64,000 bases of DNA from NCBI GenBank assembly GCA_029891385.1, contig CM057228.1:60271783-60335782 (forward strand), in the 5' to 3' direction. A model generated the notes under the pieces. That model made no database searches and was not told the origin of the DNA. It saw only the letters and a program-made list of their open reading frames with translations. The translations under genes and the position numbers were made by a program. Below, in pieces: positions 4,539 through 55,882 of the stretch. The stretch is from Erythroxylum novogranatense (lineage: Eukaryota > Streptophyta > Magnoliopsida > Malpighiales > Erythroxylaceae). Position 1 is the first letter of the stretch; the number at the start of each line of letters is the position of its first letter.

Positions 4539-4549
4539 TGGTATCAGAG
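4539..4549 (+). other. Primer-binding site of C1 (initiator tRNA-Met)
   Basis: TGGTATCAGAG begins two bases after the 5' LTR and is complementary to the 3' end of plant initiator tRNA-Met. Confidence 0.9.
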
Positions 4550-4564
4550 AAGAAGTATCCAAGG

Positions 4565-6274: not shown

Positions 6275-6293
6275 AAAACCAACAAGCACATAG

Positions 6294-14688: not shown

Positions 14689-14838
14689 GTTGTGACCAGA
14701 GTAGTCACCGATCAGAGCTACAAGCTCAACGTGTGAAAAAGAGCCTCAGGCTCAACATTTAATGAGTCCCATATGGGACAATTATCAATGAGCCCAGTAT
14801 CCAAAAGATACGGGACAGTTTAGGCACTCGGTCACAAC
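14689..14838 (+). other. Hairpin array A (G2 5' LTR)
   Basis: An outer inverted repeat GTTGTGACC (14689-14697) and GGTCACAAC (14830-14838) encloses four small hairpins. They are GAGCT-aca-AGCTC at 14715-14727, GAGCC-tca-GGCTC at 14741-14753, GTCCC-atat-GGGAC at 14766-14779 and GTATC-caaaa-GATAC at 14797-14811. Each stem is perfect and different. The array lies downstream of the inferred transcription start, so it would be in the RNA. Confidence 0.7.
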
Positions 14839-14944
14839 AAAATAACAATTGGAAAGAGAGTCTCATATGCATCACATATTCATGATATGAATGATTTCTG
14901 AATGCAATATGTGCTGACTGTAATATGAGAAATGAATGATTAAG

Positions 14945-17195
14945 TGCAACATCCCACTAACATAAGGCAAATACCCGAACACCCGAAGGGCATTCAAGTA
15001 CATACCTTATGATAATGGTATGTTGTAGCAAAACATATCTGACTTACTCATGGCAATCCAACAAACACATGGCATCATCTAACGCACTCAAAGTAACTAA
15101 ATTTTAAAACCATTCAAATCCTTTCATTCATAAAGCTTACACTGATACCACCAAAAGACTAAGCATAAAAGCTTATACAATATCCAACAAAATGAAAAAA
15201 ATAAGGCTATAACACTTCTGGTGTCAGCTGACAGACCTCTGAGCCATATCTCAAACCAAAAGATTCCTTAAGTTCTGACTAAGGAACTAGGTCTCCTGAC
15301 TCGTACCTGAAAAGACACATTGCAAATTTTGATGAGTTTTGCAAACTCCATGAGTGAACCATCATCGATGAATTCACCAGATCATAAGCACACATCACAT
15401 ATTACACAAACATTCATAAACAGATACGTTTATGATTCAAAAATTCATACAATAGAGTATAACATTCAATCATTGCCAAACAACTCATATATGAACAAAT
15501 ACATATGCATATGAGACTCACATTTGTTCTTATTGTTGTGACTGAATGCCTATCACATACTTATACAATTGATGGCCCGTAGGGCTCAATCAGAACAGAA
15601 TCACGGAGCATAGCTCTATGTGCACACACATATATCACGGAGCAAAGCTCTACGTGGAAGCGCTTCATACGGCAATTCAAGTCACAACGCCTTTATCTGA
15701 GCATGCATTTTATGAAATGCATCAATCTGAATATGGCATGTATCACAATCACATATTCAACAGAACTCATATTCATCGGATATAAATCCGGCATTCAACT
15801 TTCGTTGAGGATTCACATAACATTCATAATCACGTTCAGAATTCCATAGCAAACAAAGTCACAATCAGAGCACTTCTAATACATTCCCAAATATTGATCT
15901 CCTCGGACAATTAAAGTCCGGAATTCATAATTAAATCACAAGCAATAAAACAATATTGGAAGCTTAAACAAATCAAATTAAATCAATCCTAAGAAAACAT
16001 CTAGGTTGACTCACAGTACGCTCCAATAAGCTATTGCCAGGATGGTCCGGCAATGTCCGATTGGCGTCCGATATGCTCCTCTAAAATAGGCAAAACACAT
16101 TCACAAATTTCACATTTTCCATAATTGCACAAATGTTCTTTCATAAAAATATAAATGTATAGAATTTATGCACAATGCATGTTCAATGACAATTCCGGGG
16201 TGCAATAATGCGATCCTTATCAAAAATCATTTAGGAATCAAAGCCCTCATTAATACCATGTATTCTTACAATTGAATTGGACCAAACAATGTCAAATAAT
16301 TTCATAGCTTCATTGACCACTTCAGATTTTTCCTATAGAACATATTCGGGTCAACTTCACTCCAATGAACTCCTAATCCGTTTCGAACCATTTACATAAG
16401 ATCAAACTCAAGATTCATTCTTAAACATCAACTTCACTTCTACTGATAAACAACGGACACAATGAATGTATCATTTCGACTATCTCAAAACCCGAACAGA
16501 GTGTATACATTCATAGATTTTCAGGCACTCTTCTGTAACTCATTTTAATTTAAAGAGATCTCATTTCCTACTTTGCTGAACACATTCCTATTTCACAAAT
16601 TCGACCATCTAGTTCATTCATCACCGAAACTTAACTTCCATAACCTCACATGCATGCATTCATCTCCACTATAAAACATCATTTAACAACAACAACACTC
16701 AACTTAAACATAACTTACCTGAATCGGCTAAGAATTCCAGCAAGGAGGACCGATTACAAACAGCAAAAGTCTCACAGTTTTCTTTCGAATTTCAAGTGTT
16801 TCATCACCGAGAATCCTTGCATGCATTTTTCCTAACTCAACTCATACTCGTGTATACTATACACGCCTTACACGTGTCCTCTCCAACATAAGCCATTTGT
16901 CACACAATAATTAGTCCACATGCACAATATAATTGGCCCATAAATCAATATTTTCACAAAATTCACTAAAAATCCCAAAATGTCCTAATTAATACCAACA
17001 TCACCAAAACACATTTTAATCACAATTAATAATTCAATTGTACCCGGAAATGTCAAGGAATGCATGTACAATCATATAAATGTGCAAAAATGTGCATGTC
17101 ACAATTAATAATGCATGATGTGCATTTTTTCCTAATTTCTCACAAATTCTCAAAATTCACAATTCTATCCCTAGCATGGGTAATAGGATGTTACA
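14945..17195 (-). mobile_element. Solo LTR S1 (minus strand) inside the G2 5' LTR
   Basis: The 2251-base block has TG...CA termini and a 5-bp duplication TTAAG (14940-14944) and TTAAT (17196-17200) with one change. The G2 3' LTR has the empty site at 27571-27575. Read on the minus strand it begins TGTAACATCC, like the G2, G3 and S3 LTRs, and it has the GGTAAGT donor, hairpin array C and the CCATC/GATG hairpin. No internal region or second LTR is present, so it is a product of LTR-LTR recombination. Confidence 0.9.
15535..15688 (-). other. Hairpin array C (S1)
   Basis: An outer inverted repeat GTTGTGACT (15535-15543) and AGTCACAAC (15680-15688) encloses GCCC-gta-GGGC at 15575-15585, GAGC-ata-GCTC at 15606-15616 and GAGC-aaa-GCTC at 15640-15650. 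The last outer pair is T-A, where G2 has C-G. Confidence 0.7.
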
Positions 17196-17310
17196 TTAAT
17201 TGTATGTGATTCATTATGATTGTTAATGAACTAATGTGAATTATGTGAATTGTATGTGTTAAGTGATGAGCAACCCATCGATGATGATCACTCACTGAGT
17301 TCGCAAAACT

Positions 17311-17613
17311 CATCCAAATTTTGCAATATTTTTTTCAAGATTAAGAAGAATACCCCGTTAGGCCAACAGGAGTATACTTACAGCATTTAAGTGAAGGATA
17401 GAGGTCGGGATCATCCAAATTTTGCAATATTTTTTTCAAGATTAAGAAGAATACCCCGTTAGGCCAACAGGAGTATACTTACAGCATTTAAGTGAAGGAT
17501 AGAGGTCGGGATCATCCAAATTTTGCAATATTTTTTTCAAGATTAAGAAGAATACCCCGTTAGGCCAACAGGAGTATACTTACAGCATTTAAGTGAAGGA
17601 TAGAGGTCGGGAT
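17311..17613 (+). repeat. Three identical tandem copies of a 101-bp LTR segment
   Basis: The unit starting CATCCAAATTTTGC is repeated at 17311, 17412 and 17513 with no visible difference. The G2 3' LTR has one copy (about 27686-27786). The triplication is therefore local and recent, or an assembly artefact. Confidence 0.9.
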
Positions 17614-17945
17614 CAGTTCGCGTCTTCATTTGTGTTTTTTATATTTTGTATTGAATTGTATATTCAGCATCCTTTTGTATAAAATTGTATTTTAAAATGA
17701 CACGAGTGTTTTATAATTATGAAATGGCCCGAATGGCTTTTGAAAATTGTGTTAAGTGAAAATGTTTATGAATTAATAAGGGCCCAATTTGAGTATCAAT
17801 TTTTGCTTATTGTGTTTTGTGATTCAAAAAAAAAGTGTATCAATTTTTGACCGAATGAGTGCTCTAGCATGCCATGCTCGCGGGACACGAACTTGGATAT
17901 CGCCATCGATGTCAGGTTTGGGTCTTGCGGGAGTAGGGTGTTACA

Positions 17946-26049: not shown

Positions 26050-26054
26050 AAGTA

Positions 26055-30210: not shown

Positions 30211-30756
30211 TGTAGCGCCCCCTTACCATAGAGTATACACCGATACGCCCGTAGGTCATACCGATACATACCCTACGATGAGGGTGCACTACGATACAAT
30301 CACTTCAAATAAACCTCATGGCATCAATAATATATAAAGCAGTAATAATGTAACACCCCACTCCCGCAGGACCCGAACCCGATATCGTGGATGATATCCG
30401 AGTCCGCGCCATACGAAAATGGTATGCTACCGACTTAATTTCCGTTCTAAACTCAATAAGTCATTTTTAAAACATTTTTCAAATCATCTCAATTGCGGAA
30501 TTCAATTAAACAATTGGGTCCACTTAAAAAAATCCCTTTTTATTCATATCACAATTTACAATCATAAATATGCCCATAACAGTACTGAACATTTTCTAAA
30601 ATCATATTACAAATCCGGCATTAGCCAAAATAGGACCCACTGAATTAAAAACACTAATTTGCGGGAAATACAAATTTACACACGAATTAGAAAGACGCAA
30701 TGCAGACGTGAACTGATCCCGACCTTAACCTCTGACTCCTATGTAGTAGACGTACT

Positions 30757-30850
30757 CCCGTTTGTCTAACGGGGTACTCTTCATAACCTGTAAAAATAAT
30801 TGCAATGTTGCGTGAGTTTGCGAACTCAGTGAGAAACCATCATCGATGGT
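30757..30850 (-). other. Conserved hairpin trio in the G3 left LTR
   Basis: CCCGTT-tgtct-AACGGG (30757-30773), TGAGTT-tgcg-AACTCA (30813-30828) and ACCATC-atc-GATGGT (30836-30850) appear in mirror order to G2, as expected for the minus strand. The loops differ from G2 while the stems are the same. Confidence 0.7.
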
Positions 30851-31050
30851 CCACCCAACTCATGCATATATATACAATTCACATTAAATCACATATTAGC
30901 ACTGTCATCAAATCACATGCATTTCCAATTCGTATACATATAATCACACTATAACCATTTCAGAAATATCGCATGCAGTCATTTTCACACTTTACAATCA
31001 ATCATATACATTTGCAGTATGCATGTGACACTTCCATTTTCATTTCGTTA

Positions 31051-31297
31051 TTGTGACCGTGCGCCTGAAATTGTCCCAGTGATGGGCACATTGCGTTGAG
31101 CTTGAGGCTCTGTAAACGTTGGGCGTGATATGCCCTGATCGGTGAGCCAGTGGCTCTGTAAACGTTGGGCATGATATGCCCTGATCGGTGAGCCAGTGGC
31201 TCTGTAAACGTTGGACCATAGGTCCTGAACAGTACGTTGGGCATAGCCCTGATCATCGAGCCGAAGCTCGGAATTACGTTGGTACCACCGGTCACAA
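31051..31297 (-). other. Hairpin array B (G3 left LTR)
   Basis: The outer repeat TTGTGACCG (31051-31059) and CGGTCACAA (31289-31297) encloses at least nine small inverted repeats. They include CCCA-gtga-TGGG (31075), GAGC-ttgag-GCTC (31098), GGGC...GCCC (31121), GAGCC-agt-GGCTC (31144 and 31190), GGGCAT-gat-ATGCCC (31167), GGACC-ata-GGTCC (31213), GGGC-ata-GCCC (31239) and CGAGC-cgaa-GCTCG (31257). Linkers TGTAAACGTT and TGATCGGT repeat, giving a unit of about 46 bases. Confidence 0.75.
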
Positions 31298-31469
31298 CTG
31301 CCATTATCTGTGCATGCATTTATGCATGAATGCATATGTTCCAATTTCCATTCACAGTCATTTGCATGACAATACCATTTCTCATTCCTTCAGTTTTCAC
31401 ATTCAGTCATGTACACTTTCAATTCATTTCATTTGTGCATTCATATTCACTTACACATAATAGCACTTT

Positions 31470-31605
31470 TGTTGGACCCCACCCCCCACCCGTAGGTGTT
31501 TGCAGGTTATACTGCGGCGAGTGTTTGCGGGTTATACCACGGCATCCAACTTAATCAGTATTGTCCTCTCTGGGAATCGAACTCGCGACCCCTCAAGCTT
31601 CAGGC
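31470..31605. other. Unrelated 5' segment of G4 with a tRNA B-box-like motif
   Basis: Two imperfect copies of GTGTTTGC(A/G)GGTTATAC occur at about 31497-31535. On the minus strand GAGTTCGATTCCC (31570-31582) resembles the polymerase III B box. A partial A-box-like TGGCTGCAGC lies about 40 bases before it on that strand. It may be a SINE fragment captured at the truncation point. No complete tRNA can be drawn. Confidence 0.3.
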
Positions 31606-32727: not shown

Positions 32728-32739
32728 GGGGGGGAGAGA
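32727..32739 (+). other. Polypurine tract of G4
   Basis: AAGGGGGGGAGAGA directly follows the pol stop and precedes the LTR start. Confidence 0.85.
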
Positions 32740-33141
32740 TGTTAGCCCCAAATTTTTTTTTAAATTTAAGCATGATTAAAGGAAATTAAAGCTTTCATTA
32801 TTAAGTATGGTAGCATTGATTAAATATGATAGCATTAAATAACATAAGACATTAATTAGCATGAAGTAGCATTAATTAAGTTAGGTAACATGAATTAAAA
32901 AGGAATTGATTAAGTTAGGTAAGAGTTAATAACATTAAATGTGTTAGTTGGTTAGTTAGATTAATATTTAATGAAATGGGCTTTAAATGAGGTAGGAAGG
33001 AGGAGAGCATAAGATGGGCTTTAAATGAGTTATGGGCCTTGAGAAGTTTAAAGAGAAGAAGAAGAAGGAAGTAGGAAATAAGGAGGAAGAAAGAATAGGT
33101 GAGAGGGCTTTGGGCCTTTGGGCTTAAGTGATTAATAAGAG

Positions 33142-33148
33142 TATAAAA
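33142..33148 (+). promoter_or_regulatory. TATA box of the G4 LTR
   Basis: TATAAAAGGGG precedes a purine-rich leader. Spacing to the splice donor is like that in G1. Confidence 0.6.
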
Positions 33149-37238: not shown

Positions 37239-37245
37239 TTTTATA
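37239..37245 (-). promoter_or_regulatory. TATA box of the G3 left LTR (minus strand)
   Basis: TTTTATA here reads TATAAAA on the minus strand. The right LTR has the same site at 54586-54592. Confidence 0.6.
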
Positions 37246-37838
37246 CCCAAATGGTAAGGCATTGTTTGGCAATCAACAGTCCGATCCGAACAACCTCAGT
37301 CCAAGTTCTAACTCTAATTTCTCCCGAATTTCAATGGTTCAGACCCTAATTCCTCAATTCCAATTTCTAATCATTCTATGCCATTGGACAATCAATTTCG
37401 GAACCGGAAATCAAAATAATCAGTCATTAGGTCAATTTTTCGGTCCGGACCTATTACTCCGAAAATTCCAGAAAAATTCCTATAAATTCTCAAAACTAGA
37501 AAATACATAATCATGCATTCCAATTTCATAATTCAATTTCCAAATTCTCAATTCTAACTCCAATTTCAATTTTCACAACTCAATTTGACCTAGTTCTCCA
37601 ATTTTCCAATTTGTCCAAATCAAATCGGGATCTATCAAACATGTATGTACGCACTTGTGCCAGTGCAATAATTACCCAATTTACCAAATTATACATAATT
37701 TAAAATGCATGCGTATGCCAATGACTCGTTCCTCTAACATTAGAGGTCAAATGAATGAACATATCACATATGCGATATAACGACCTAGCATGTCCCAATT
37801 TACCATTATAACCTTCCCATCAGTGACGGGATGTTACA

Positions 37839-40800: not shown

Positions 40801-41115
40801 TGCAAGGATATACCTCGGTATAACACTTATATTTCTTTATACATCCACCAATACCAATACACTAGATCTTCCTTTATCAGATCAAACTATACACTTTTTC
40901 TTATTCCATATTATTCGCAATTCCTGCTTATCACATTCTAACATATCATCTCTTTTCCTCGCTATTTCTAACCACTTAAACAATTGGGACATGCTCAAAT
41001 GACTCTACTAGGGATCAGTCACTACCGTCTGCTATGACGACGTCAATGCATGTTACTTGACACAAATTTCAGAATGCCCATGTACAACCGTACAACCGGG
41101 CTCTGATACCACATA
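37839..41115 (-). mobile_element. G3 internal region, non-coding
   Basis: Next to the left LTR, the reverse complement of ATTCTCCCCTCC is a polypurine tract, preceded by the trace of a gypsy pol end (TTTCGAGGACGGAATTT). The remaining 3.2 kb shows no gag or pol motif and no open frame above about 100 codons on either strand. Its two ends resemble the ends of the G2 interior. I found nothing else in it. Confidence 0.75.
41100..41111 (-). other. Primer-binding site of G3
   Basis: GCTCTGATACCA is the reverse complement of TGGTATCAGAGC, the perfect initiator tRNA-Met site, four bases from the LTR. Confidence 0.9.
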
Positions 41116-41818
41116 TGTAACACCCCACTCCCGCAGGACCCGAACCCGATATCGTGGATAATATCCGAGTCTGCGCCATACGAAAATGGTATGCTACCGA
41201 CTCAATTTCCGTTCTAAACTCAATAAGTCATTTTTAAAACATTTTTGAAATCATCTCAATTGTGGAACTCAATTAAACAATTGGGTCCACTTAAAAAAAA
41301 TCCCTTTTTATTCATATCACAATTTACAATCATAAATATGCCCATAACAGTATTGAACATTTTCTGAAATCATATTACAAATTCGGCATTAGCCAAAATA
41401 GGACCCACTGAATTAAAAACACTAATTTGCGGGAAATACAAATTTACACACGAATTAGAAAGACGCAATGCAGACGTGAACTGATCCTAACCTTAACCTC
41501 TGAATCCTATGCAGTAGACGTACTCCCGTTTGTCTAACGGGGTACTCTTCATAACCTGTAAAAATAATTGCAATGTTGCGTGAGTTTACGAACTCAGTGA
41601 GAAACCATCATCGATGGTCCACCCAACTCATGCATATACATATAATTCACATTAAATCACATATTAGCACTGTCATCAAATCACATGCATTTCCAATTCG
41701 TATACATATAATCACACTATAACCATTTCAGAAATATCGCATGCAGTCATTTTCACATTTCACAATCAATCATATACATATGCAGTGTGCATGTGACACT
41801 TCCATTTTCATTTCGTTA

Positions 41819-42062
41819 TTGTGACCGTGCGCCTGAAATTGTCCCAGTGATGGGCACATTGCGTTGAGCCTGAGGCTGTAACGCGTTAGGCGTGATATGC
41901 CTCGATCGGTGAGCGGTGGCTCAGAACGCGTTGGGCATGATATGCCTCGATCGGTGAGCCGATGGCTCTCAGAAGCGTTGGACCATAGGTCTGAGCGATC
42001 GTTGGGCATAGCCCTGATCATCGAGCCGAAGCTCGGAATTACGTTGGTACCACCGGTCACAA
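41819..42062 (-). other. Hairpin array B' (G3 right LTR, degraded copy)
   Basis: The outer repeat TTGTGACCG/CGGTCACAA and the last hairpins are kept, but the GAGCC-agt-GGCTC units of array B read GAGCGGTGGCTC and GAGCCGATGGCTC. Many differences fall at CAG or CTG, so consensus errors are a competing explanation. Confidence 0.6.
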
Positions 42063-43607
42063 CTACCATTATCTGTGCATGCATTTATGCATGAATGCAT
42101 ATGTTCCAATTTCCATTCACAGTCATTTGCATGACAATACCATTTCTCATTCCTTCAGTTTTCACATTTAGTCATGTACACTTTCAATTCATTTCATTTG
42201 TGCATTCATATTCACTTACACATAATAGCACTTCAATGTCAAAATTCAATATTTCAGACACCCATGGTCCAAAATCAATCACAGGTATCCATCCATTTTC
42301 TCCGCATGGCATCAAAGCATATAATATTAAACACATAAAAGCTGAGGAACCAACTAGGTTACTCACCTGAGGACTTCCGAGCTACAAATAGGAAGTCTCA
42401 CCATCGACAAACGATTTACGCCCACTTGAGCCTCTAAAACAATCGTAACAATCGAACATTACCAATTGTACAATTTCTAACATTTAACAATGCATATATG
42501 ACGAATAATTTATGCTCTATACATGTTATGACATTTCCTGTTGGGCCCCGAAAATTTTTTATTTATTTATGAATTTGTTTAATTGCTTGCTTACTTTAAT
42601 TATTTTTATTTTGCTTTAATTGATTTAATTATGTGTTTATATAAATATTTTATGTTGGGCTTGGAAATTTGAAGTTAGAAATTAAGTGTAGAATTAAAAT
42701 TTAAAAGTTAGAAGAATGGGCTTTGAGTTTAAGTGGTTAGTGTAGTGGGCTCGTAGTTATAAGAGTGGAGAGCCCAAAGGAAGGGAGGAGAGCTTTAGGA
42801 GAACTCAAAACTATGTAGTTTTGATGGGAGGCTTTAAGTTAAAGCTAATGACTTAAGTGAATTGGAGAGGAGTAGAGAAGTGTCGTAGAACCCAAAGGAG
42901 AATAGAAGAAATACGTGAGCAACCAAAGGAAAGGAGACTTTCGGCCAAGGAGAGGAAGGAGAGCCGTAGGAGGCTTGAGGGAAAGGAGAAAGAAGAAGAA
43001 AAAGTGAAGAAAAAATAAGTAGTAAGGTAAGCTACCATCTCCCTTGAGTAGGGTTTCGAAAATGGGATGAAACGGAGCTTAGGGTTTGTGTAAAGTTTGA
43101 AGGGAGGGGTGAGATCTATGGGTTTTTGTGTTTTCCTAAGCTAGGTTTTAGTTGTTTTAGCTTAAATGGGCTATGGGTAAGTTAGGTTTAAGACTTCGTT
43201 ATCGATTTATCGATTCTTGAATGTTTCGACTTTTCCAATGAGTTTCGGAATGTGTTTTATTGAAGGGAACCAAGGAAACCTCACTCAAGAGAGAGAGGAA
43301 GAGCAGTCGTGAATCCGGATTTCCGACGATAGGTGGGTAACATCTTTATAGTTATTGTGTAATGGGCAAAGCCCTATGTGTGCTATCTTTGTTATACTAT
43401 GTGTATATTGAAAGTGTATTTACATTGCTTTGAATAAAAAGTATGAAACTATGACGATTTGGAAGTATGAATGAAGCATGAAATGCTATTATTGTGCTTG
43501 AATATGTGAGCATAAATGAGTTGTGATTGGGCGAGAGAGAACCCCTTTGTGAAGTCACGTGCACGTTGACCCCCATAGCCTTCTCCCGGCTGCCCTCTTG
43601 TGGCTTA

Positions 43608-43656
43608 CGAGATCCGAAAATGGACTCGATGTGTTCACGGTAAACTTCGGTTTCCG
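43608..43656 (+). other. Two hairpins in the G5 5' LTR, one with a UUCG tetraloop
   Basis: CGAG-a-TCC pairs with GGA-CTCG around GAAAAT (43608-43628). CGG-t-AAAC pairs with GTTT-CCG around TTCG (43638-43656), giving the very stable C(UUCG)G loop in RNA. The 3' LTR keeps both (near 51587-51635). Confidence 0.55.
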
Positions 43657-44907
43657 GTGTGTGTAGGGAACTCTCGAGCCAATTGTGTGCATTTCAGCAT
43701 TTATAAGTGTTTATGATGTATAATATGGGTTTTAGTTGCAAGATGATTCTATGTTATGCATTATGTGATGAGTTGAGTAAATTGTGAGTTATGTGATAAA
43801 GTTGAGTTTTCAACCTATTATGTAAATTGCTAATGCTCTGGATTATTAATTGTGTGTGTGTGGCTCATTATGTGATGGCTATAAATTTGTTAGCCACTGA
43901 GCCGTGTTAGCTCACCCCATTCTCCCTCCTCAGGTGCAAATCAGAGTTGAACTCGGAACCTTGCAAAAGCTTCGGGCATCGCTCCAAGAAATTTAGGAAC
44001 TTTTGTATTAAGTTAGTAACTAGCTTTTGGGAATAGCTTTGTAAGCATATTGATCATTGAGCATCTCATCTTTGGTATTTTGTACTTGATTTTGATAAAT
44101 ATGTCAATATGTAACCAAAGCTATGCATGAATTTTCCTCATGATTTTGAAATGAGAATGAGAGCTCTAGTACTCTCTTTATGTGAATTGGCTGAGTTTTG
44201 TACTGTGTATGGCCTTGGGAAGGCATGTGTATGATTTTGAGTATTATTGTTATATGAGTTTTGTTGGGTTTTGGCCTTGGGAAAGGTCGCTGGAATGTTG
44301 TTATGGTCTATGTGTTGTTGAAGAGTATAGTGCTGCAGAATCTGGGCTAAGGGTTCATTTGGGAAAATTTGAGTTTGTTGTGTTTGCTGCAATTTCTGGG
44401 TTGAAATAGGTCATATGGGATCTTTTAGACTTGTTGAGAGTGTTAGTCGAGCTATAGAGCCTCTTCCAGGATATTTATGAGCTATTTATGATGTGTAAAT
44501 TGGTAAGTGTGAGTCGTTGGTGTTTAATGCGGAGCTGTCAAAGTGATGATTGGTAGAGAAGCTTTGAGTCCACTCTTGACCCATATAGAGTTGGAATATA
44601 GGTCAGTAGTCTTCATGAAAGTTGTAGATAATTCTTTTACCTTTCCATAGACACTAAGTTTGCTAAATTTGGAGTTCTGGGTCAAAAGTTATGAAGGTCG
44701 GAAGTTCTGGTACTGGTTGTGGGGAGCTAGTCGACCTGTCTTAGTGGGAACTTTTGATTCCCGTAGCGCCCGAGCATGCTTGTGAGCCCTTCTTGAAAAA
44801 GGTATAATTTTCCCTTAGCTTTCCAACGCCTCCGACCGTGTCTAATTTGGAGCTCGGAGTCAAAAGTTATGAGGGTTAGAAGTCGGATAGGTCGGGCTGT
44901 AGGGCAG

Positions 44908-45003
44908 GTCGCCCAAGCGCTCGCGGGCGAACGAGCACCTGCACTCGCCCATGCCGGGCGAGCGCTGGCGGGCGAGCGCCAAGAGCCCGGCATGCCGGGC
45001 GAT
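44908..45003 (+). repeat. GC-rich GCCGGGCGAGCGC cluster, short allele (G5 5' LTR)
   Basis: Copies of CGCTCGCCC and its inverse GGGCGAGCG alternate. The 3' LTR carries a longer version (52866-53046). Confidence 0.85.
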
Positions 45004-45619
45004 TGCGAGTTTTGGGGGTCGGTTTTGGCTGATCGACCCCTCCCCCTTCTTTTGGCCATAACTTTTTACACCGACCTCCGATTGAGCTGATTTTTGAACC
45101 GATGGATTCCTAAGAAAATTTTCTATCCTTCTACACCTGAATTATCATTATTTATTTTAAATTGAGAAAGGTAATTTAAAACAAAGTGTGGAGGTCGGCT
45201 GATTCTTTCTGCATATACTTCACTAAGTTTTAAATATCTGGAGCTATAGGGCTCGGATCGAGGCGATTCTTGTTTTAAATGAAACTAGAGACATAAATCT
45301 ACACTTTTTGTGAAGGAACCGAGCAGTAATTCAGCCTCTAAAGTTTTCAAATTTTGACATGAAGTCGGTAGAGGGACTATTTTCACTGTTTTCTTTAAGA
45401 TAGTATTTTTGCCATAACTTCTTCATTTCTAACCCGAATTGAGCGATTCCAGTTGCGTTGGAATCGTTAGATCCGAGGGATCATTTTATCAAGAGTCAAC
45501 CCCGAATTTTATAAAGTGAAATTTTTCCTTATTTGTGATTAGTATGTGTGTTCGGTTGTGGGTCTTCTACACTGGATGGGTCCGAATGTTGGGCCTCGGA
45601 GACGGGGTCCAACATTGTT

Positions 45620-45631
45620 TGGTATCAGAGC
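45620..45631 (+). other. Primer-binding site of G5
   Basis: TGGTATCAGAGC is an exact match to the initiator tRNA-Met complement. Confidence 0.92.
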
Positions 45632-45809
45632 TTAGGCTTACTCCTAGGCTTAAAATGTATAGTAGGGAACATTGTTTTGTATGTGATTAAATGTTTACTT
45701 TATGAATTGATTGTTTGCATTACGTGACATGCATATCATGCATACATATAGGAACTAAGCTTAAAAACGAATTGTAGCTAATCACTAGTATTTTCATTGA
45801 AGGAGTACG

Positions 45810-46961
45810 ATGCCACCTCGTCAAAGGACACGAGGAGTTTTGCAAGGTTCAATTGCACCTGACTCTCCGTCGAGAGAGGAGAGCATGGATGAGTCCGTAG
45901 CCCCGGGAGTGGCTGAGGCCCCTCTAGGGCAGGGTAGTGAGCCTCTTCATTCACAGACTCAGCAATCACCTAGCCTATCTGAGCAAGTGCCTGCGTTAGA
46001 CCCCAGGCTGTTCCAAGCATTTACCCAAGCTTTTGTTCAGGCTATGGGTCAAATGCCTCAGGCTTCTGGTTCGGCCCCAGCTAAGAAGGGGAGGCAGTTT
46101 GACAAGCTGAGGAAGTATGGAACAGTGGATTTCTTTGGAACCTCGGATCCGGAAGAAGCTGAGAACTGGTTGAGGAAGACCGAGAGAGTGCTGGATCAGA
46201 TGGAGTGTGAGGATGATGAGAGAGTGGTCTATGCTGCTAGTCTTCTTCAGGGTGATGCTTTGCACTGGTGGGAGACTGTGCCAGGGAGTCAGATGAGACC
46301 AGTGGGATTGACATGGGAGACTTCTGACGTATGCAGGGAAGAAGTATCTGTCTGAAGTGTACATTCAATGAAGCGAGAGGGAGTTTGAGCCTCACCCAGA
46401 GGAGATGGTATTCTTGAGTATGGCGTCGGTTTACTCAGTTATCGAGGTATGCTGCAGATATGATGTTTAGTGAAGCTGCCAAGTGCCGCCGATTTGAGTC
46501 AGGTCTGCACCTAACTATCAGAGAGAAGGTAGTGGTGCAGAACTTCTGTGATTTCCAGTAGCTAGTTGAAGCGGCTCTGAGGGTTGAGAATATTGAAAAT
46601 ATCAAGAGTGCGATCAAGAAGAAAGGGAGAAGCGATTCGGGAGGGAGGTGGTACTTCTAATCACGAGAGAAGTGCTGAACCTTTCTGCTTGATCGAGGAG
46701 AGGAGCACCGGTGGGAGTTGGCCTAGATCTGCGAGGACTCCTACTGTTTCTCACCAAGCTTCTACGGTGGGCGGCAGTAGAAGAGTAGGTGGGGAGAGAC
46801 CACCTCTTCCCAAGTGTGACCATTGTGGGCTTCCCCATAGAGGAGAATGTCATAGAAAGACTGGAGCATGCTTTAATTGTGGGCAGAAGGGACATTTTGC
46901 CAAGGAGTGTCCTAAACCAGATAGAAGAGAGGGATCTCAGATGCAAGCTTCGGGAGGATGA
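45810..46961 (+). pseudogene. gag: Gypsy gag with CCHC zinc knuckle (G5), frameshifted
   Basis: From the ATG at 45810 the frame is open to 46355 and covers a Gln/Pro/Ser-rich N-terminus and the retrotransposon gag core (WLRKTERVLDQM near 46170, LLQGDALHWWE near 46245). A small deletion near 46322 shifts the frame, and several stops follow to about 46580. The nucleocapsid part is open again at 46584-46961 in another frame. It has a zinc-finger-like CDHCGLPHRGEC and a CCHC knuckle CFNCGQKGHFAKEC near 46872-46912. Gag packages RNA and builds the particle. The damage may be partly consensus error, because it falls at a CTG context. Confidence 0.87.
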
Positions 46962-47099
46962 GGTAGTGGCTCGAGAAAGTCGTGCAGTGGGTAGCTCTGG
47001 AGGTCTAAGAGAGCTTATCCTCCGAGCAGATCCGGAGGGCAAGTTCCGGCCAGTGTTTGCCATGACTCGAGAGGAGGCGAGACCGCGCCGAAGTTGTAG

Positions 47100-47640
47100 C
47101 GGGTATGGTTAAACTTTTGATGATTATGTGCTTGCTATGATTGACTCGAGTTCTACCCATTCTTTTGTGTCTTGGTATGACTATTTCTAGAGGAGTTTGA
47201 GCCCTTTGGATACTCCGCGATGGTGAGTACTCAATCGGCCAATATATTATTATCATCAAGTGTATAGAGATTGTGAGATAGAGATTAGTGGAGGAAAATT
47301 GGTGGTGGATCGATGCCTTTGAAGATGGGAGGATTGGATGTGATCCTAGGTATGGACACATTAGAGAGGTATCATGTTACTTTAGATTGTAAAGAAGGCG
47401 GTGGAGTTTGAGCTAGAGGATAGCAGGAAAGTGATACTCATGGGAGATAGAAAAGTCAGTCCACCTCGGGTTATTTCATTTATGATGGCGAGAGAGAATG
47501 ATGAGCGAGGGTGTGAGGGCTTTTTGGCTTATGTGCTAGATATGAAAGCGAGATAGAGGGAGGTTGGAAGACATTCCAAGAGTCGGGAATTCCAGATGTC
47601 TTTCCGAGGAATTGCGGGACTACCTCCTCTAGGAAATTGA
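47100..47640 (+). pseudogene. Gypsy aspartic protease remnant (G5)
   Basis: The active-site region reads V-L-A-M-I-D-S-S-S-T-H-S-F near 47130-47165, where the family has Asp-Ser-Gly. Gly is replaced by Ser through one G-to-A change. Downstream only scattered traces such as a GGLDVILGMD-type stretch near 47330-47355 are readable, in shifting frames. Confidence 0.75.
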
Positions 47641-47695
47641 GTTTCCCATCGAGCTTCATTCAGGCACTACGCCGATCTCAATTTCGCCTTATCGG

Positions 47696-48900
47696 ATGGC
47701 TCCGGCGGAATTGAAGGAGCTTAAGGAGCAATTGGAGGATCTTTTAAAGAAGGGATACATTAGGCCGAGCTCTTTGCCTTGGGGGGCTCCGGTTCTTTTT
47801 GTGAAGAAGAAAGATGGGTCTTTGCGGATGTGTGTGGATTACAGGAAACTGAATCATGCCACCGTTAAGAACAGATATCCGCTCCCGCGTATAGATGACT
47901 TGTTTGATCAATTGCAAGGGGCAAGAGTCTTTTCCAAGATAGACTTGAGGTCGGGTTATCATCAGTTGAGGATTAAGGAGACCGATGTGTCAAAGACTGC
48001 TTTTAGGATGAGGTATGGCCACTTTGAGTTTTTGGTTATGCCTTTCGGGTTGACGAATGCTCCTGCGGTCTTTATGGATTTGATGAACAGAGTCTTCAGG
48101 TCTTTCTTAGATCAATTTATCATTGTCTTTATTGATGATATATTGGTCTATTTTAAGAGTGATGTAGAGCATGAGGATCATTTGAGGGTTGCCTTGGAGA
48201 CCTTGAGAAAGAATGAGTTGTATGCCAAATTCGACAAGTGCGAATTCTGGCTAAGAGAAGTAGTATTTCTCAGGCATGTGATCTCTGAGCGGGGAGTGCA
48301 TGTGGATCCGTAGAAGATAGAAGTTGTGGTTAAATGGGAAGCGCCAAAGAATGTAGCTGAAGTGAGAAGTTTCTTGGGATTAGCTGGATATTACAGGAGG
48401 TTTGTGGAGGACTTTTCCTTGATAGCTGCTCCACTTTCCAAATTGACGAGGAAGAATCAAAAATTTGAATGGACTGAGGAGTGCCAGAGTAGTTTCGAGG
48501 AGTTGAAGAAGCGGCTTACAACCGCACCGATTCTGACATTGCCTTCTGGTGATGATGGGTACATTGTGTCTGATGATGCCTCAGGGAAGGGTTTAGGGTG
48601 TGTATTGATGCAAGAGAGAAAGTGATTGCTTATGCCTCTGGCGTTGAAGCCTTATGAGATGAACTATCTGATCCATGACTTGGAGTTGGCTGCTATAATC
48701 TTTACATTGAAGATTTGGAGACATTATCTGTATGGAGTTACCACTAGGATATTTACAGATCATAGGAGCCTTAAATACTTGTTGACCCAGAAAGAAATGA
48801 ATTTGAGGCAGAGGCGATGGTTAGAGTTGCTAAAAGATTATGACTTGATGATAGATTACCATCCCGGGAAGGCCAATGTGGTAGCAGATGCTCTGAGTAG
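47696..48900 (+). pseudogene. pol: Gypsy reverse transcriptase and RNase H (G5), interrupted
   Basis: RT is open from 47696 to 48310, with MCVDYRKLN near 47830, the [11 protein letters not shown] motif near 47935 and the catalytic FIDDIL near 48130. A TAG at 48311-48313 stands where Gln is usual, and the frame continues ([12 protein letters not shown] near 48370, connection domain) to a TGA at 48623-48625. There a two-base loss shifts the frame. RNase H continues from 48626 ([10 protein letters not shown] near 48760, [15 protein letters not shown] near 48860-48900). All usual catalytic motifs are visible, so the inactivating events are few. Confidence 0.9.
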
Positions 48901-50499
48901 GAAGTCCACTATGGCTCACATGGAGAGTGTGTATCTTCCCTTGCTGAAGGATTTAGCCAGACTTGATGTGATGTTGAGGCAAGATGGGCCTGAGTGTATT
49001 TTGGCAAGTTTCAGGGTGAGGCCAGTGCTAAAAGAGAAGATCAAGGAATTGCAGGATCAGGATGAGTACTTGAGTAAGCTTAGGGAAGGGATAAAGAATG
49101 GCAAGCCGTCTAATGTAGAGGTAAAGGAAGATGGATTGATGGTTGTGGGTAGTAGATTGTATGTCCCGGGCAAGTTAGAGTTGAGAGATGAGATTCTTGA
49201 TGAGGCGCATAATGCTCCTTATGCAATGCATCCAGGGAGTTCTAGGATGTATCGGAATTTGAAGGAGCATTTCTGGTGGAAAGGAATGAGGAAAGATGTA
49301 GTAGAGTATACTAAAAGATGTTTGGTGTGCCAGCAAGTTAAAGCTGAACACCAAGCACCTTCAGGCAAGCTTAATCCCTTGCCTATTCCGGAGTGGAAAT
49401 GGGAAAAGATAACTATGGATTTTCTGATGGGATTGCCGAGATCTAGCAAGAAGCATGATGCAATATGGGTGATTGTGGATAGATTGACTAAGTCAGCTCA
49501 CTTCTTGCCAATTTGTCAGACAGATTCTTTGAATGTGTTGGCTAAGAAGTATATGGATGAGGTGATTAGGCTTCATGGGATTCTGAGTTCAATAGTTTCT
49601 GATAGAGATCCCAGGTTTACCTCCAGGTTTTGGGAGAGCTTGCAGGAGGCCTTGGGGACTAGATTGCATTTTGAGACGGCTTTCCATCCATGATTGATGG
49701 ACGATCGGAGAGGACCATTCGGACTTTGGAGGCAATGTTGAGGGCTTGTGCTTTGGATTTCAAAGGTTCGTGGGATGATCACTTACCTTTGATTGAGTTT
49801 GCTTATAATAATTCCTATCATTCGGGAATTCAGATGGCACCTTATGAGGCTTTGTATGGTAGGAGATGTAGAACTCCTATATGTTGGGACGAGGAAGGTG
49901 AAAGGAAGCTTGTAGGACCTGAGTTAGTGAAGGTTACTGTGGATAAGGTGAAGTTAGTGAAGCAAAGGCTTAAGGCAGCTCAAGATCGGATGAAGAGCTA
50001 TTCGGATGCCCATAGGAAAGAGATGGAATTTGAAGTGGGTGAGAAAGTGTTTCTTAGAGCTTCTCCATGGAAAGGTGTTTTGAGGTTTGGTAAGAAAGGT
50101 AAGCTTAGCCCAAGGTATATAGGCCCATACAAGATCATTGAGAGGATTGGGCCTTTGGCTTATAAGTTAGATTTGCCATCGGAGTTGTCTAAGATTCATA
50201 ATGTGTTCCACGAGTCGATGCTGAGGAGATATAGGTCGGATCCTTCGCATATAGTTCAACCTTCAGAAGTTCAGTTGAGAGAGGATTTGAGTTATGAGGA
50301 GCAACCAGTAGAAATCTTAGATTCAAAGGAAAAAGTATTAAGGAACAAGATTGTGAAGCTGGTTAAGGTCTTGTGGAGGAACCATTCGACCGAGGAGGCT
50401 ACTTGGGAACCCTTGGAAGCCATGAGGGAGAAGTATCCCTACCTCTTCATGGACTCAGGTAAGGATTTCGAGGACGAAATTCTTTTAGGAGGGGAGAAT
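48901..50499 (+). pseudogene. pol: Gypsy integrase with chromodomain (G5), one internal break
   Basis: The HHCC zinc finger (H-x-H near 49209-49230, CLVCQQVK near 49326) and core (MDFLMGLP near 49420, SDRDPRF near 49600) are open to 49693. A local change near 49686-49694 creates a TGA, and the frame resumes at 49690 with SERTIRTLE (catalytic Glu). The GKKGKLSPRY module is near 50095 and the chromodomain near 50355-50440. The final stop found in the G4 relative is lost by a one-base change near 50480, so translation would run into the LTR. Confidence 0.9.
50487..50499 (+). other. Polypurine tract of G5
   Basis: AGGAGGGGAGAAT directly precedes the 3' LTR. Confidence 0.85.
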
Positions 50500-53400
50500 T
50501 GTTGGGCCCCAAAAATTTTTTATTTATTTATGAATTTGTTTAATTGCTTGCTTACTTTAATTATTTTTATTTTGCTTTAATTGATTTAATTATGTGTTTA
50601 TATAAATATTTTATGTTGGGCTTGGAAATTTGAAGTTAGAAATTAAGTGTAGAATTAAAATTTAAAAGTTAGAAGAATGGGCTTTGAGTTTAAGTTGTTA
50701 GTGTAGTGGGCTCGTAGTTATAAGAGAGGAGAGCCCAAAGGAAGGGAGGAGAGCTTTAGGAGAACTCAAAACTATGTAGTTTTGATGGGAGGCTTTAAGT
50801 TAAAGCTAATGACTTAAGTGAATTGGAGAGGAGTAGAGAAGTGTCGTAGAACCCAAAGGAGAATAGAAGAAAAACGTGAGCAACCAAAGGAAAGGAGACT
50901 TTCGGCCAAGGAGAGGAAGGAGAGTCGTAGGAGGCTTGAGGGAAAGGAGAAAGAAGAAGAAAAAGTGAAGAAAAAATAAGTAGTAAGGTAAGCTACCATC
51001 TCCCTTGAGTAGGGTTTCGAAAATGGGATGAAACGGAGCTTAGGGTTTGTGTAAAGTTTGAAGGGAGGGGTGAGATCTATGGGTTTTTGTGTTTTCCTAA
51101 GCTAGGGTTTGGTTGTTTTAGCTTAAATGGGCTATGGGTAAGTTAGGTTTAAGACTTCGTTATCGATTTATCGATTCTTGAATGTTTCGACTTTTCCAAT
51201 GAGTTTCGGAATGTGTTTTATTGAAGGGAACCAAGGAAACCTCACTCAAGAGAGAGAGGAAGAGCAGTCGTGAATCCGGATTTCTGACGATAGGTGGGTA
51301 ACATCTTTATAGTTATTGTGTAATGGGCAAAGCCCTATGTGTGCTATCTTTGTTATACTATGTGTATATTGAAAGTGTATTTACATTGCTTTGAATAAAA
51401 AGTGTGAAACTATGACGATTTGGAAGTATGAATGAAGCATGAAATGCTATTATTGTGCTTGAATATGTGAGCATAAATGAGTTGTGATTGGGCGAGAGAG
51501 AACCCCTTTGTGAAGTCACGTGCACGTTGACCCCCATAGCCTTCTCCCGACTGCCCGCTTGTGGCTTACGAGATCCGAAAATGGACTCGATGTGTTCACG
51601 GTAAACTTCGGTTTCCGGTGTGTGTAGGGAACTCTCGAGCCAATTGTATGCATTTCAGCATTTATAGGTGTTTATGATTTATAATATGGGTTTTAGTTGC
51701 AAGATGATTCTATGTTATGCCTTATGTGATGAGTTGAGTAAATTGTGAGTTATGTGATAAAGTTGAGTTTTCAACCTATTATGTAAATTGTTAATGCTCT
51801 GGATTATTAATTGTGTGTGTGTGGCTCATTATGTGATGGCTATAAATTTGTTAGCCACTGAGCGTGTTAGCTCACCCCATTCTCCTCCTCGGTGCAAATC
51901 GAGTTGAACTGGAACCTTGCAAAAGCTTGGGCATCGCTCAAGAAATTTAGGAACTTTTGTATTAAGTTAGTAACTAGCTTTTGGGAATAGCTTTGTAAGC
52001 ATATTGATCATTGAGCATCTCATCTTTGGTATTTTGTACTTGATTTTGATAAATATGCCAATATGTAACCAAAGCTATGCATGAATTTTCCTCATGATTT
52101 TGAAATGAGAATGAGAGCTCTAGTACTCTCTTTATGTGAATTGGCTGAGTTTTGTACTGTGTATGGCCTTGGGAAGGCATGTGTATGATTTTGAGTATTA
52201 TTGTTATATGAGTTTTGTTGGGTTTTGGCCTTGGGAAAGGTCGCTGGAATGTTGTTATGGTCTATGTGTTGTTGAAGAGTATAGTGCTGCAGAATCTGGG
52301 CTAAGGGTTCATGTGGGAAAATTTGAGTTTGTTGTGTTTGCTGCAATTTCTGGATTGAAATAGGTCATATGGGATCTTTTAGACTTGTTGAGAGTGTTAG
52401 TCAAGCTATAGAGCCTCTTCCAGGATATTTATGAGCTATTTATGATGTGTAAATTGGTAAGTGTGAGTCGTTGGTGTTTAATGCAGGAGCTGTCAAAGTG
52501 ACAGATTGGTAGCAGAAGCTTTGAGTCCACTCTTGACCCATATAGAGTTGGAATATAGGTCAGTAGTCTTCATGAAAGTTGTAGATAATTCTTTTACCTT
52601 TCCATAGACACTAAGTTTGCTAAATTTGGAGTTCTGGGTCAAAAGTTATGAAGGTCGGAAGTTCTGGTACTGGTTGTGGGGAGCTAGTCGACCTGTCTTA
52701 GTGGGAACTTTTGATTCCCGTAGAGCCCGAGCATGCTTGTGAGCCCTTCTTGAAAAAGGTAGAATTTTCCCTTAGCTTTCCAACGCCTCCGACCGTGTCT
52801 AATTTGGAGCTCGGAGTCAAAAGTTATGAGGGTTAGAAGTCGGATAGGTCGGGCTGTAGGGCAGGTCGCCCAAGCGCTCGCGGGCGAACGAGCACCCGCA
52901 CTCGCCCATGCCGGGCGAGCGCTGGCGGGCGAACGCCCAGCCCTCGCGCTCGCCCAGGCCGGGCGAGCGCCCAGCGCCCGCGCTCGCCCAGGTCGGGCGA
53001 GCGCCCAACGCCCGCACTCGTCCGGGCGAGCGCCATGCCGGGCTCTTGCGAGTTTTGGGGGTCGGTTTTGGCTGATCGACCCCTCCCCCTTCTTTTGGCC
53101 ATAACTTTTTACACCGACCTCCGATTGAGCTGATTTTCGAACCGATGGATTCCTAAGAAAATTTTCTATCCTTATACACCTGAATTATCATTATTTATTT
53201 TAAATTGAGAAAGGTCATTTAAAACAAAGTGTGGAGGTCGGCTGATTCTTTCTGAATATACTTCACTAAGTTTTAAATATCTAGAGCTATAGGGCTCGGA
53301 TCGAGGCGATTCTTGTTTTAAATGAAACTAGAGACATAAATCTACACTTTTTGGGAAGGATCCGAGCTGTAATTCAGCCTCTAAAGTTTTCAAATTTTGA

Positions 53401-53657
53401 CATGAAGTCGGTAGAGGGACTGTTTTCACTGTTTTCTTTAAGATAGTATTTTTGCCATAACTTCTTCATTTTTAACCCGAATTGAGCGATTCCAGTTGTG
53501 TTGGAATCGTTAGATCCGAGGGATCATTTTATCAAGAGTCAACCTCGAATTTTATAAAGTGAAATTTTTCCTTATTTGTGATTAGTATGTGTGTTCGGTT
53601 GTGGGTCTTCTACGCTGGATGGGTCCGAATGTTGGGCCTCGGAGACGGGGTCCAACA
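50500..53657 (+). repeat. 3' LTR of G5
   Basis: The 3158-base LTR is near-identical to the 5' LTR. Differences are concentrated in the GC-rich cluster (longer here) and in a run of seven single-base losses at about 51862-51942. Confidence 0.93.
52866..53046 (+). repeat. GC-rich GCCGGGCGAGCGC minisatellite, long allele (G5 3' LTR)
   Basis: Units of about 32 bases combine CGCTCGCCCAGG with CCGGGCGAGCGCC, so each unit can fold on itself. There are about two to three more units than in the 5' LTR. Both edges of the tract are identical in the two LTRs. Confidence 0.85.
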
Positions 53658-53829
53658 TTTCCGATCCTATTCTCGAATTTTCCCAATCTCAATTTTGAAT
53701 CCCGAATTCCTAATCTCCAAATTGAATTAAATCTATAACCAATTGGATCATCAAATTCCAAATCCCCACTTTATAAATCCTCAAAAATCCAATTTCAGCC
53801 AAAGAAAACACTTGACTTGAATTTAGGGG

Positions 53830-54052
53830 TCCCGCATGGCAAGAAGATCGCCGCCTTGGCGAGACCTTCGCCCGTCATGGCGCATACCTTTCTCTTCCTG
53901 GCGTGTCTTTATTCTGCTTTCGCCTTGACGTGTGCGTTCGTTAAATCGCGGCGTGCGACAAAACTCAGCTCGTCGCGGCGTGCCAAGCAGGAGTCGCAGC
54001 GTGCGAATTAAATTTGCTCGCCGCGGCGTGTTCATCATACGTCGCGGCGTGC
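53830..54052 (-). repeat. CGCCGCGGCG motif cluster in the G3 right LTR
   Basis: This is the counterpart of 36481-36706. The right part is conserved. In the left part several CCGCGG cores read CCTTGG or are lost. Confidence 0.75.
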
Positions 54053-55461
54053 AAACCCAGAAACACGCCCGAAACCCAGAATTTCCCAGAAATCCGTCTA
54101 ATAACCTTTCCAAATCCAATTCTTCTCTTATCAAACCACTCCCAAATAATTCCATACACTTCATACAACTAATCCTTAGCCTTTATTTCATCAAACAATC
54201 AAAATCCCTAAAATTCAACCCTAAAATCACTGAAAACCAACGTCGAAAACCCTAAATGCCAAATCCTTTAATACACAAGTTAAATCATCAATCTAATACA
54301 ATAAATCAATAGATCAAGCTACAATAGGTAGGAAAGAAGCAACTTACTTGCTCAAAAGCCTCAAATCTCCAACAATCACACCAAAATCAACTCAACGTCA
54401 CTCACGGCTACACCCCCAAACCAAACCAAATCTTTAAGTCTTCTTAACTCCAATCAAAGGGAATCAATCAAGGATGGAGGGGGAAGCAACCAACCCAAAG
54501 CAATCAAGAAGAAACTCCAAGCAAAATCCACGAAGAAGAAGGAGGAAGAAGCATCATGGAAGAAGAGATTTTCAAAGGGTTAGGGTTTTATACCCAAATG
54601 GTAAGGCATTGTTTGGCAATCGATAGTCCGATCCGAACAACCTCAGTCCAAGTTCTAACTCTAATTTCTCCCGAATTTCAATGGTTCAGACCCTAATTCC
54701 TCAATTCTAATTTCTAATCATTCTATGCCATTGGACAATCAATTTCGGAACCGGAAATCAAAATAATCAGTCATTAGGTCAATTTTTCGGTCCGGACCTA
54801 TTACTCCGAAAATTCCAGAAAATTTCCTATAAATTCTCAAAATTAGAAAATACATAATCATGCATTCCAATCTCATAATTCAATTTCCAAATTCTCAATT
54901 CTAACTCTAATTTCAATTTTCACAACTCAATTTGACCTAGTTCTCCAATTTTCCAATTTGTCCAAATCAAATCGGGATCTGTCAAACATGTATGTACGCA
55001 CTTGTGCCAGTGCAATAATTACCCAATTTACCAAATTATACATAATTTAAAATGCATGCGTATGCCAATGACTCGTTCCTCTAACATTAGAGATCAAATG
55101 AATGAACATATCACATATGCGATATAACGACCTAGCATGTCCCAATTTACCATTATAACCTTCCCATCAGTGACGGGATGTTACAAATAATCACATTCAC
55201 TAAATTTTAAAACCGAAAGATAACTTTCATTTCATTCATAAACCCTAAATACAATATCCCGTCATATACACAACTGAACAAGTCCAAAATAGACAGTACT
55301 AACTCCTATCTAAGTCATCCCCAAAATATCACAAAGGATCCCCAACTGACCGACCTGTGGGCCGTGCTCCTCTTGCCGGCTCACACACAGCAGGAAAAGT
55401 CTTAAAAATCCGGAGCTAGAAGTCACACTACCGCTGTCCTGAAAATTAGTCGCAATTTGGG

Positions 55462-55506
55462 TGAGTATGCGAAACTCAATGAGTAACCATCATCGATGGT
55501 TCACTC
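55462..55506 (-). other. Conserved hairpins in S3
   Basis: TGAGT...ACTCA (55462-55478) and AACCATC-atc-GATGGTT (55485-55501) are present. The latter is lengthened by GAGT and ACTC at 55481-55484 and 55503-55506 with one bulged C. The CCCGTT hairpin is not visible. Confidence 0.6.
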
Positions 55507-55671
55507 AATTCATGCATTACGCAGAATTGCGTACAAAGCAACACATATCATATTTAGAATCATAAATCAGAAATTCATAAAATCATGCTCACACAGTTGC
55601 AATAAATCCCATATCAAATTCACAACACAATCACAGACTGAATGCACAATGATTTCCAATTCATTATTAGC

Positions 55672-55882
55672 GTTGTGACTGGGCGTCAGAGTTATCCCAT
55701 TTCTGGGCACATCACACAGAAATCGCGTTTATGGGGGTAGGAGAGCCCTCTGGGTATGCACTACTGCCCACGCGCACTAGGGATAGGAGAGCCCTCTGGG
55801 TATGCACTAATCCCTTTTTTTTTACTTATCACAAAGACGAGCTTATAGCTCCAATCAGATCAGAATGTGCTCCAGTCACAAC
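55672..55882 (-). other. Hairpin array D (S3)
   Basis: The outer repeat GTTGTGACT (55672-55680) and AGTCACAAC (55874-55882) encloses CCCA-tttc-TGGG (55696-55707), two larger hairpins and GAGCT-tat-AGCTC (55839-55851). The two larger hairpins share an identical core of 26 bases, TAGGAGAG...ATGCACTA. The core is flanked by TGGG/CCCA in one (55732-55770) and AGGGA/TCCCT in the other (55779-55815). Confidence 0.75.

Follow-up and report, generated by a model that had tools for sequence, protein, structure and literature searches.

A structured module repeated thousands of times in plant long terminal repeats, possibly a signal of unspliced retrotransposon RNA

Long terminal repeat (LTR) retrotransposons make up much of plant genomes, and repeated short palindromes occur in the LTRs of other flowering plants. 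To our knowledge, little mapping has been done of the signals by which the RNA of these plant elements is packaged or exported. We analyzed a 64,000-nucleotide stretch of contig CM057228.1 of Erythroxylum novogranatense (positions 60,271,783-60,335,782; the window), with genome-wide searches over the 1.3-Gb genome, and compared a hairpin-rich block found in its LTRs with described systems. The closest are psi, the dimerization initiation site (DIS) and the Ty1 leader domain (for its kissing loop, PMC5454406), with which the block would share a cluster of hairpins in leader RNA, past a donor-like site and present in unspliced RNA only. The block differs from them in being internal to the LTR, with the donor-like site about 1 kb before it, and in having tandem hairpin units of variable number. 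The export elements RTE of IAP and MTE of MusD (PMC12786077, in the text available) resemble it, by description, as structured RNAs serving intron-retaining transcripts. The same review states that plant LTR elements are generally without introns, with few exceptions. BARE1 of barley is a plant LTR element whose RNA pools are kept apart partly by splicing (PMC3735527, available in part). It differs in being a Copia element with a facultative 104-nt intron at the end of gag, whereas here the splice-like sites lie inside the LTR; an LTR-internal intron with a structured domain in it would be arranged differently. PMC3735527 contains no word beginning with "hairpin". PMC3601003 and PMC6911290, in the portions available, deal with LTR motifs and with palindromes at insertion sites, not with such arrays. 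In searches of open-licence papers for the structure and for spliced transcripts or LTR introns of related elements, we recognized no description of it; the earlier note on this DNA likewise knew of none.

The blocks belong to four LTR families, named G2, S1, G3 and S3. Those in the window are as follows.

14689-14838, plus strand (sense as read): G2 block, a closing helix around a multi-branch array of mini-hairpins, with exact GTTGTGAC and GTCACAAC ends
15535-15688, minus strand (sense): S1 block, of a young high-copy family, with exact GTTGTGAC and GTCACAAC ends
31050-31298, minus strand: G3 block of the left (3') LTR, with nine hairpins called and one base changed at the start of the closing repeat
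41818-42063, minus strand: G3 block of the sister LTR (right, 5'), diverging from the left copy far more than most of the LTR does
55672-55882, minus strand: S3 block, with a longer hairpin duplicated and exact GTTGTGAC and GTCACAAC ends

These results partly confirmed the earlier note. Its places and closing repeats hold, exactly for G2, S1 and S3 and with the one changed start base for G3 (31050-31298). It gave a single G3 copy and overlooked the block of the sister LTR at 41818-42063. Its assignment of the last outer pair, the ninth of the closing helix, is right for T-A, found in 30 of 30 S1 and both S3 blocks (2/2), and mostly right for C-G, found in 21 of 25 G2 and 25 of 28 G3 blocks. 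Its perfect hairpins with loops of 3-4 bases needed correction: some stems are imperfect and the loops span 3-7 bases. Stems of the S1 block are mostly 4 bp, and the S3 block has two perfect mini-hairpins plus the duplicated longer, imperfect hairpin. Only the window copy of G2 has the perfect GTCCC/GGGAC stem, which is present in 0 of 25 other G2 rows.

The block is a real structured module, repeated thousands of times in plant LTRs. The exact pattern GTTGTGAC N100-130 GTCACAAC was found at 2999 places in the genome, against 5 for the reversed control, so that the four LTR families named by the earlier note are an underestimate. The true total of closing pairs is higher, because the N100-130 range excludes all five window blocks, each of at least 150 bases. 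The individual blocks also served as queries. Among the best 40 of 3039 first-look candidates, the G2 block found itself and 39 others at 75-89% identity; the S1 block found itself and 39 others at 96-98% among the best 40 of 2320, and the S3 block itself and 39 others at 92-95% among the best 40 of 2047. For G3, the best 40 of 3617, itself included, filled 42 rows, of which two were second pieces.

Pairing was kept while letters changed in two parts of the structure, the hairpin units and the closing helix. Units of G3-type arrays have the form ACGTT[G RRC loop GYYC]TGA with the stems GAGC/GCTC, GGGC/GCCC and GGAC/GTCC. At G3-type loci 4 to 9 hairpins were called per copy, in varying order, and some are chance pairings beside the units. 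For the unit test, the flanks were the sole criterion in choosing 13-mers from 123 blocks, which gave 102 distinct ones, 37 with three pairs or fewer and many out of register. All five positions paired in 25 of the 102 and four in 40. Paired cells amounted to 76.3% versus 64.7% in shuffles (standard deviation (sd) 1.1), and the score was 0.379 versus 0.221 (sd 0.017), with 0 of 1000 shuffles reaching these values. Changes on both sides numbered 69 versus 25 (sd 8.6; 0/1000), and the number of pair types was less unusual (63/1000). This shuffle overstates independence because the units are paralogues and relatives.

The closing helix was tested on 15 rows of the four families, hand-picked from 87, with 500 shuffles and with row relatedness still present. 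In these rows 91.3% of cells were paired versus 87.0% in shuffles (sd 0.9; 0/500), and 14 cells had changed on both sides versus 5.1 (sd 2.4; 0/500). Covariation at four pairs scored 0.201 versus 0.138 (sd 0.015; 0/500) and was far lower with slid partners. Further pair types were fewer than in shuffles (500/500). The 8-bp closing part was counted in 85 of the 87 blocks (L085 and the partial L016 left out); it was perfect in 63, and two blocks of the G2 family, L007 and L012, carried compensated doubles. In the G2 rows of the rate test described below, compensated doubles were found in L012 and L016 and an uncompensated one in L022.

Rates of change were compared between paired and unpaired positions. 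The G2 alignment kept 26 of 28 rows (no block in L025 and L027) and the G3 alignment 29 of 30 (L095 lost; L085 a poor match). The rate test used 25 G2 blocks (window copy excluded), the 19 blocks of a single length class among 29 from G3, and 30 S1 blocks; positions of the closing helix were counted as unpaired, and the sister LTRs among these blocks are not independent. Paired positions changed less than unpaired ones in G3 (16/1254 versus 80/2926, p 0.003) and in G2 (27/950 versus 167/3425, p 0.006). Changed letters with kept pairing suggest that a folded molecule is important to the element.

Folding energy was calculated for whole blocks against 500 dinucleotide shuffles in the sense and antisense orientations. 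The z-scores (sense/antisense) were −5.9/−5.9 for G2, −5.3/−4.0 for the left and −4.1/−3.4 for the right G3 block, −3.4/−4.0 for S1 and −2.5/−2.7 for S3, the weakest. The sense fold of G2 is one closing helix around a multi-branch loop of mini-hairpins. In a sliding scan of 160-base sense windows with 60 shuffles each, mean z over the LTRs was −0.1 to −0.8. The G2 block was the lowest-scoring place of its LTR. In G3, a GC-rich window scored −3.7 and the block −3.6, and in S1 and S3 the windows at 16050 (−2.9) and 56410 (−3.4) scored below those at their own blocks. Hairpin density was counted in 200-base windows (stems of at least 5 bp with at least three G/C, loops of 3-8) and compared with 10 first-order shuffles of the window, whose maxima were 2 or 3. 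Each G3 copy reached six hairpins per 200 bases and the surroundings of G2 up to five, above the shuffles. S1 and S3 had at most three, within the shuffle null. GC-rich repeats exceeded the null in another LTR (5, near 44.8 and 52.8 kb) and in the LTR of G3 itself (4, near 36.5 kb). No Rfam match reached its gathering score in the 64 kb; one chance-level match (E 0.29) lay in 14001-17000. A second array of the same LTRs, palindromic and GC-rich, of the CGCCGCGGCG type, was seen at 36446-36730 and 56341-56470, upstream of the block in sense order.

The sense strand of the G3 blocks follows from the structure of their element.

30349-37838, minus strand: left LTR of G3, with a nested insertion at about 31468-36002 and a polypurine tract abutting at 37839
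41116-55185, minus strand: right LTR of G3, with a nested element at about 42539-53654
30344-30348 and 55186-55190: target duplication AATAA of G3, 5 bp, flanking both LTRs
41100-41111, minus strand: primer-binding site TGGTATCAGAGC of G3, adjoining the right LTR

Since AATAA flanks both LTRs, G3 is one insertion. Its LTRs end TGTAACA...TGTTACA (plus reading), so that it has the TG...CA ends and short target duplication of Ty3/gypsy-type elements, and it likewise has a polypurine tract (minus strand) and a primer-binding site, presumably of the tRNA-Met type, beside its LTRs. The positions of these two sites make the minus strand the sense strand of G3. A common sequence order, together with G2 copies that retain the primer-binding site, makes the minus strand the sense strand of S1 and S3 and the plus strand that of G2. 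The minus-strand sense of G3, S1 and S3 had been overlooked. The primer-binding site alone was also found in the G2 copies L004, L005 and L007 and the S1 copies L061 and L063, that is, in three of four G2 and two of six S1 loci tried. As to the reverse transcriptase and chromodomain integrase that mark the Tekay/chromovirus lineage, the G3 interior has no sense frame longer than 58 codons, and the chromodomain proteins of the window belong to other elements. After the primer-binding site, no frame exceeded 68 codons in three G2 copies (about 910 bases) or 118 codons in two S1 copies (about 1250 bases). By their reading frames, the sampled elements look non-coding. The G3 element apparently lies inside an S3 LTR (30211-30348 and 55186-57681), where its left flank TGTAGCGCCCC resembles the missing end of S3 as judged from the L031 copy. 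In L031 itself, an S3-type block at 2458-2651 lies in an LTR adjoining or nested with an S1-type LTR.

In sense order, all four families have a promoter region, a donor-like site, the block and an acceptor-like site. The sites in the window are listed below; the splice-like ones are an addition to the earlier note.

37240-37245, minus strand: G3 TATA box, 245 bases before the donor-like site
36997-37005, minus strand: G3 donor-like CAA/GTAAGT, splice boundary after CAA
30787-30795, minus strand: G3 acceptor-like TTTTACAG/G, splice boundary before G
56797-56805, minus strand: S3 donor-like CAA/GTAAGT, splice boundary after CAA
55438-55445, minus strand: S3 acceptor-like TTTTCAG/G, splice boundary before the last G
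16713-16721, minus strand: S1 donor-like CAG/GTAAGT, splice boundary after CAG
15306-15313, minus strand: S1 acceptor-like TTTTCAG/G, splice boundary before the last G
13784-13791, plus strand: G2 donor-like AAG/GTAAG, with the TATA box at 13527
17276-17345, plus strand: continuation of the G2 LTR past the S1 insertion, a mutated copy with CAAG, not CAGG, in the acceptor region

A TATA box is present in G2, G3 and S3, and S1 has only a TATA-like sequence; the block had rightly been placed downstream of the TATA box in G2 and G3. The donor-like site lies 143-260 bases past the TATA box or TATA-like sequence, the block 920-1163 bases past the donor, and the acceptor-like site 185-262 bases past the block; the G2 spacings were taken from copy L005, and its block-to-acceptor distance was calculated by hand (1393 − 1033 − 175). 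The acceptor surroundings are alike in the four families: the length of a T-run varies, and in most listed copies the run closes with CAG or TAG; the 127 matches to the acceptor motif include several loci covering one place and chance matches. Both kinds of splice-like site recur across many copies. Among 12 G2 donor rows, seven read GTAAGA or GTATGA, L007 was changed and four alignments were cut off. Nine of ten S1 rows read GTAAGT (L063 with a changed preceding base), and one alignment was cut off. The 12 G3 rows comprised four with intact GTAAGT, six with a three-base gap after GTAA, L081 with an altered site and L085 without GT. A second donor-like motif, AGGTGAGTAACC, common to G3 and S3, was seen on the minus strand at 36140 and 56032, past the first donor-like site and before the block.

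The putative introns measure 1364-1671 bases and hold 41-67 ATGs, versus means of 31-37 in mononucleotide shuffles; the excess is clear in S1, G3 and G2 and about 2 sd in S3. In these putative leader introns of S1, S3, G3 and G2, ATG occurs at 1.3 to 2 times its shuffle frequency and about twice as often as CAT. From this arrangement, the block may sit in a putative ATG-rich leader intron.

We propose, tentatively, that the block is a cis-acting structured signal of unspliced genomic RNA, for packaging or export, in a large group of plant LTR retrotransposons; we consider this quite possible, though short of probable. In the sense transcript, the block would lie between the donor-like and acceptor-like sites and would thus be confined to unspliced, full-length RNA. 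A bulged closing helix of about 9-16 bp would enclose a multi-branch loop whose hairpin units are gained, lost or exchanged. The domain would mark unspliced RNA for the replication pathway through Gag binding or through export of intron-containing RNA, and splicing would remove it along with the ATG-rich leader. Non-coding elements would need cis-signals read by the proteins of relatives, which suggests that packaging or export fits better than translation control. A more specific version is that exchangeable hairpin cassettes in a fixed closing helix form a modular RNA domain that acts as a changing tag, so that the unspliced RNA of non-coding elements is packaged by the proteins of coding relatives. 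This version seems to us unlikely.

A number of results weigh against the proposal of an unspliced-RNA signal. In the closing helix, the count of pairs changed on both sides (4) was not unusual, being reached in 128 of 500 shuffles. S1 had no difference between paired and unpaired rates (10/720 versus 73/3990, p 0.54). Within-class covariation was calculated with RNAalifold for 36 of 50 listed places, taken without regard to content and divided into classes A (26 blocks, from the first places listed on contig C1), B (6) and C (4). For the antisense fold of class A it was not significant, 78 of 300 shuffles reaching the score; the sense fold of class A showed weak covariation (7/300). Classes B (8/300 and 9/300) and C (300/300 and 3/300) are too small to decide. 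Within-class covariation was not taken as proof. Single G.U-type departures, counted as antisense versus sense types, showed no bias: 21 v 14 cells in the rate-test rows (p 0.31), 11 v 6 unit types (p 0.33) and 7 v 10 cells in the 85-block set. Strand assignment through wobble counts was therefore dropped, and the folded form may be RNA of either strand or DNA. As for splicing, some copies have a mutated donor or acceptor, the acceptor being altered in the G2 copy of the window and in L008, L011, L021, L025, L053/L060 and L070. The T content of the putative introns does not clearly exceed that of the sequence beside them. In a junction probe made for S1 only, the best 40 of 565 first-look candidates were all one-sided and no intron-less genomic copy was found; this fits an exclusion of spliced RNA and also no splicing at all. 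Finally, the sampled elements have no gag frame, so that a split between translation and packaging would have to come from relatives. Taken with the evidence above, the earlier interpretation is partly supported. Changing letters with constant pairing stood between families and among hairpin units, with slower paired change in two of three families, and was not significant within class A in the antisense fold. The G.U types did not separate RNA from DNA.

The main rival is a mutation process and not selection, to which we give a lowish but appreciable probability. Tandem duplication of hairpin units, with template switching at small palindromes, would overwrite one arm with the other's sequence in replication or reverse transcription. 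Template switching is able to create hairpins and compensatory changes, according to the accessible text of PMC8794818, where stems with coupled changes are found, as here, although in rRNA genes; here the distant closing helix is kept as well. The number and order of hairpin units differ among copies, wobbles are without strand bias, and units that are otherwise equal carry as their loop either TAA or its reverse complement TTA, a difference that could come from inversion of the loop or from one base change. The G3 sister LTRs are also much more different in the block than in most places. There were about 31 differences in 180 bases of the block region, far above most other places; the sisters are mostly 1-2% apart and about 15-27% apart in 31100-31240, in the 60-base tract 36146-36205 and in 36446-36625. 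Two of these three tracts are hairpin or palindromic repeat arrays, one of them GC-rich, and a mutation process, gene conversion or local hypermutation must explain the divergence. The block was no hotspot in five other sister pairs, with differences in block versus rest of 4/182 v 73/2007, 3/181 v 50/2561, 4/182 v 119/2077, 5/175 v 42/1947 and 14/175 v 168/2277 (the alignment of a sixth pair, L069/L070, was too short for a profile). We therefore rejected the block as a general mutation hotspot, which is true of the G3 pair and not of the five others. The closing helix also tells against template switching, as it covaries while its bulges change freely; simple hairpin priming is unlikely there because its arms are more than 100 bases apart. 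In addition, the polarity of the TGA loop is kept (six perfect TGA unit types, zero TCA), and thousands of copies have kept an intact enclosing 8-bp repeat.

The palindromes could instead act as DNA, either as dyads bound by a host or element protein or as hairpins of single-stranded cDNA during reverse transcription, which we think rather unlikely. The balanced wobble counts agree with a DNA role, as do the spacing of about 21-24 bases between units of G3-type arrays and the recurrence of GRRC/GYYC-type arms. Binding dyads would, however, be expected to keep their letters, yet the stem types vary (GAGC, GGGC, GGAC), and it is not obvious what an enclosing helix would contribute to binding of duplex DNA.

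Translation control, by ribosome shunting over an ATG-dense leader with a structured domain as in plant pararetroviruses, appears improbable. It would account for the 41-67 ATGs in the putative introns, where the median frames are 7-9 codons; the sequence after the primer-binding site has no long frame to be translated (maxima of 68 codons in G2, 58 in the G3 interior and 118 in S1), and the block lies several hundred bases before that site. Production of small RNAs, or host recognition of folded transcripts, is very improbable even though both strands show folding energy. Dicer-type processing requires longer hairpins than these of 4-6 bp, and a silencing target kept over thousands of copies would gain the element nothing. 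That a short foldback or miniature inverted-repeat transposable element once inserted in an ancestral LTR is scarcely credible and was rejected: the inverted ends are constant in sequence, but the block occupies the same LTR place in the copies compared, has no target-site duplication, and its two flanks are unlike each other and resemble the corresponding flanks of those copies.

Other repeats were also seen in the window. Another long LTR pair, at 42539-45616 and 50500-53659, has its own GC-rich hairpin repeats (44800-45000 and 52800-53000). A 101-base unit is present in three identical tandem copies at 17310-17615, and a Copia-type element at 3451-12853, with gag, integrase and reverse transcriptase frames, lies between the repeats 3451-4541 and 11763-12853.

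If the arrays arose by template switching, they would be a large natural record of that process. With its thousands of copies and natural compensatory variants, the structure offers a ready system for studying which RNAs enter replication, how elements without coding capacity draw on the proteins of others, and whether splicing takes place in LTR leaders.

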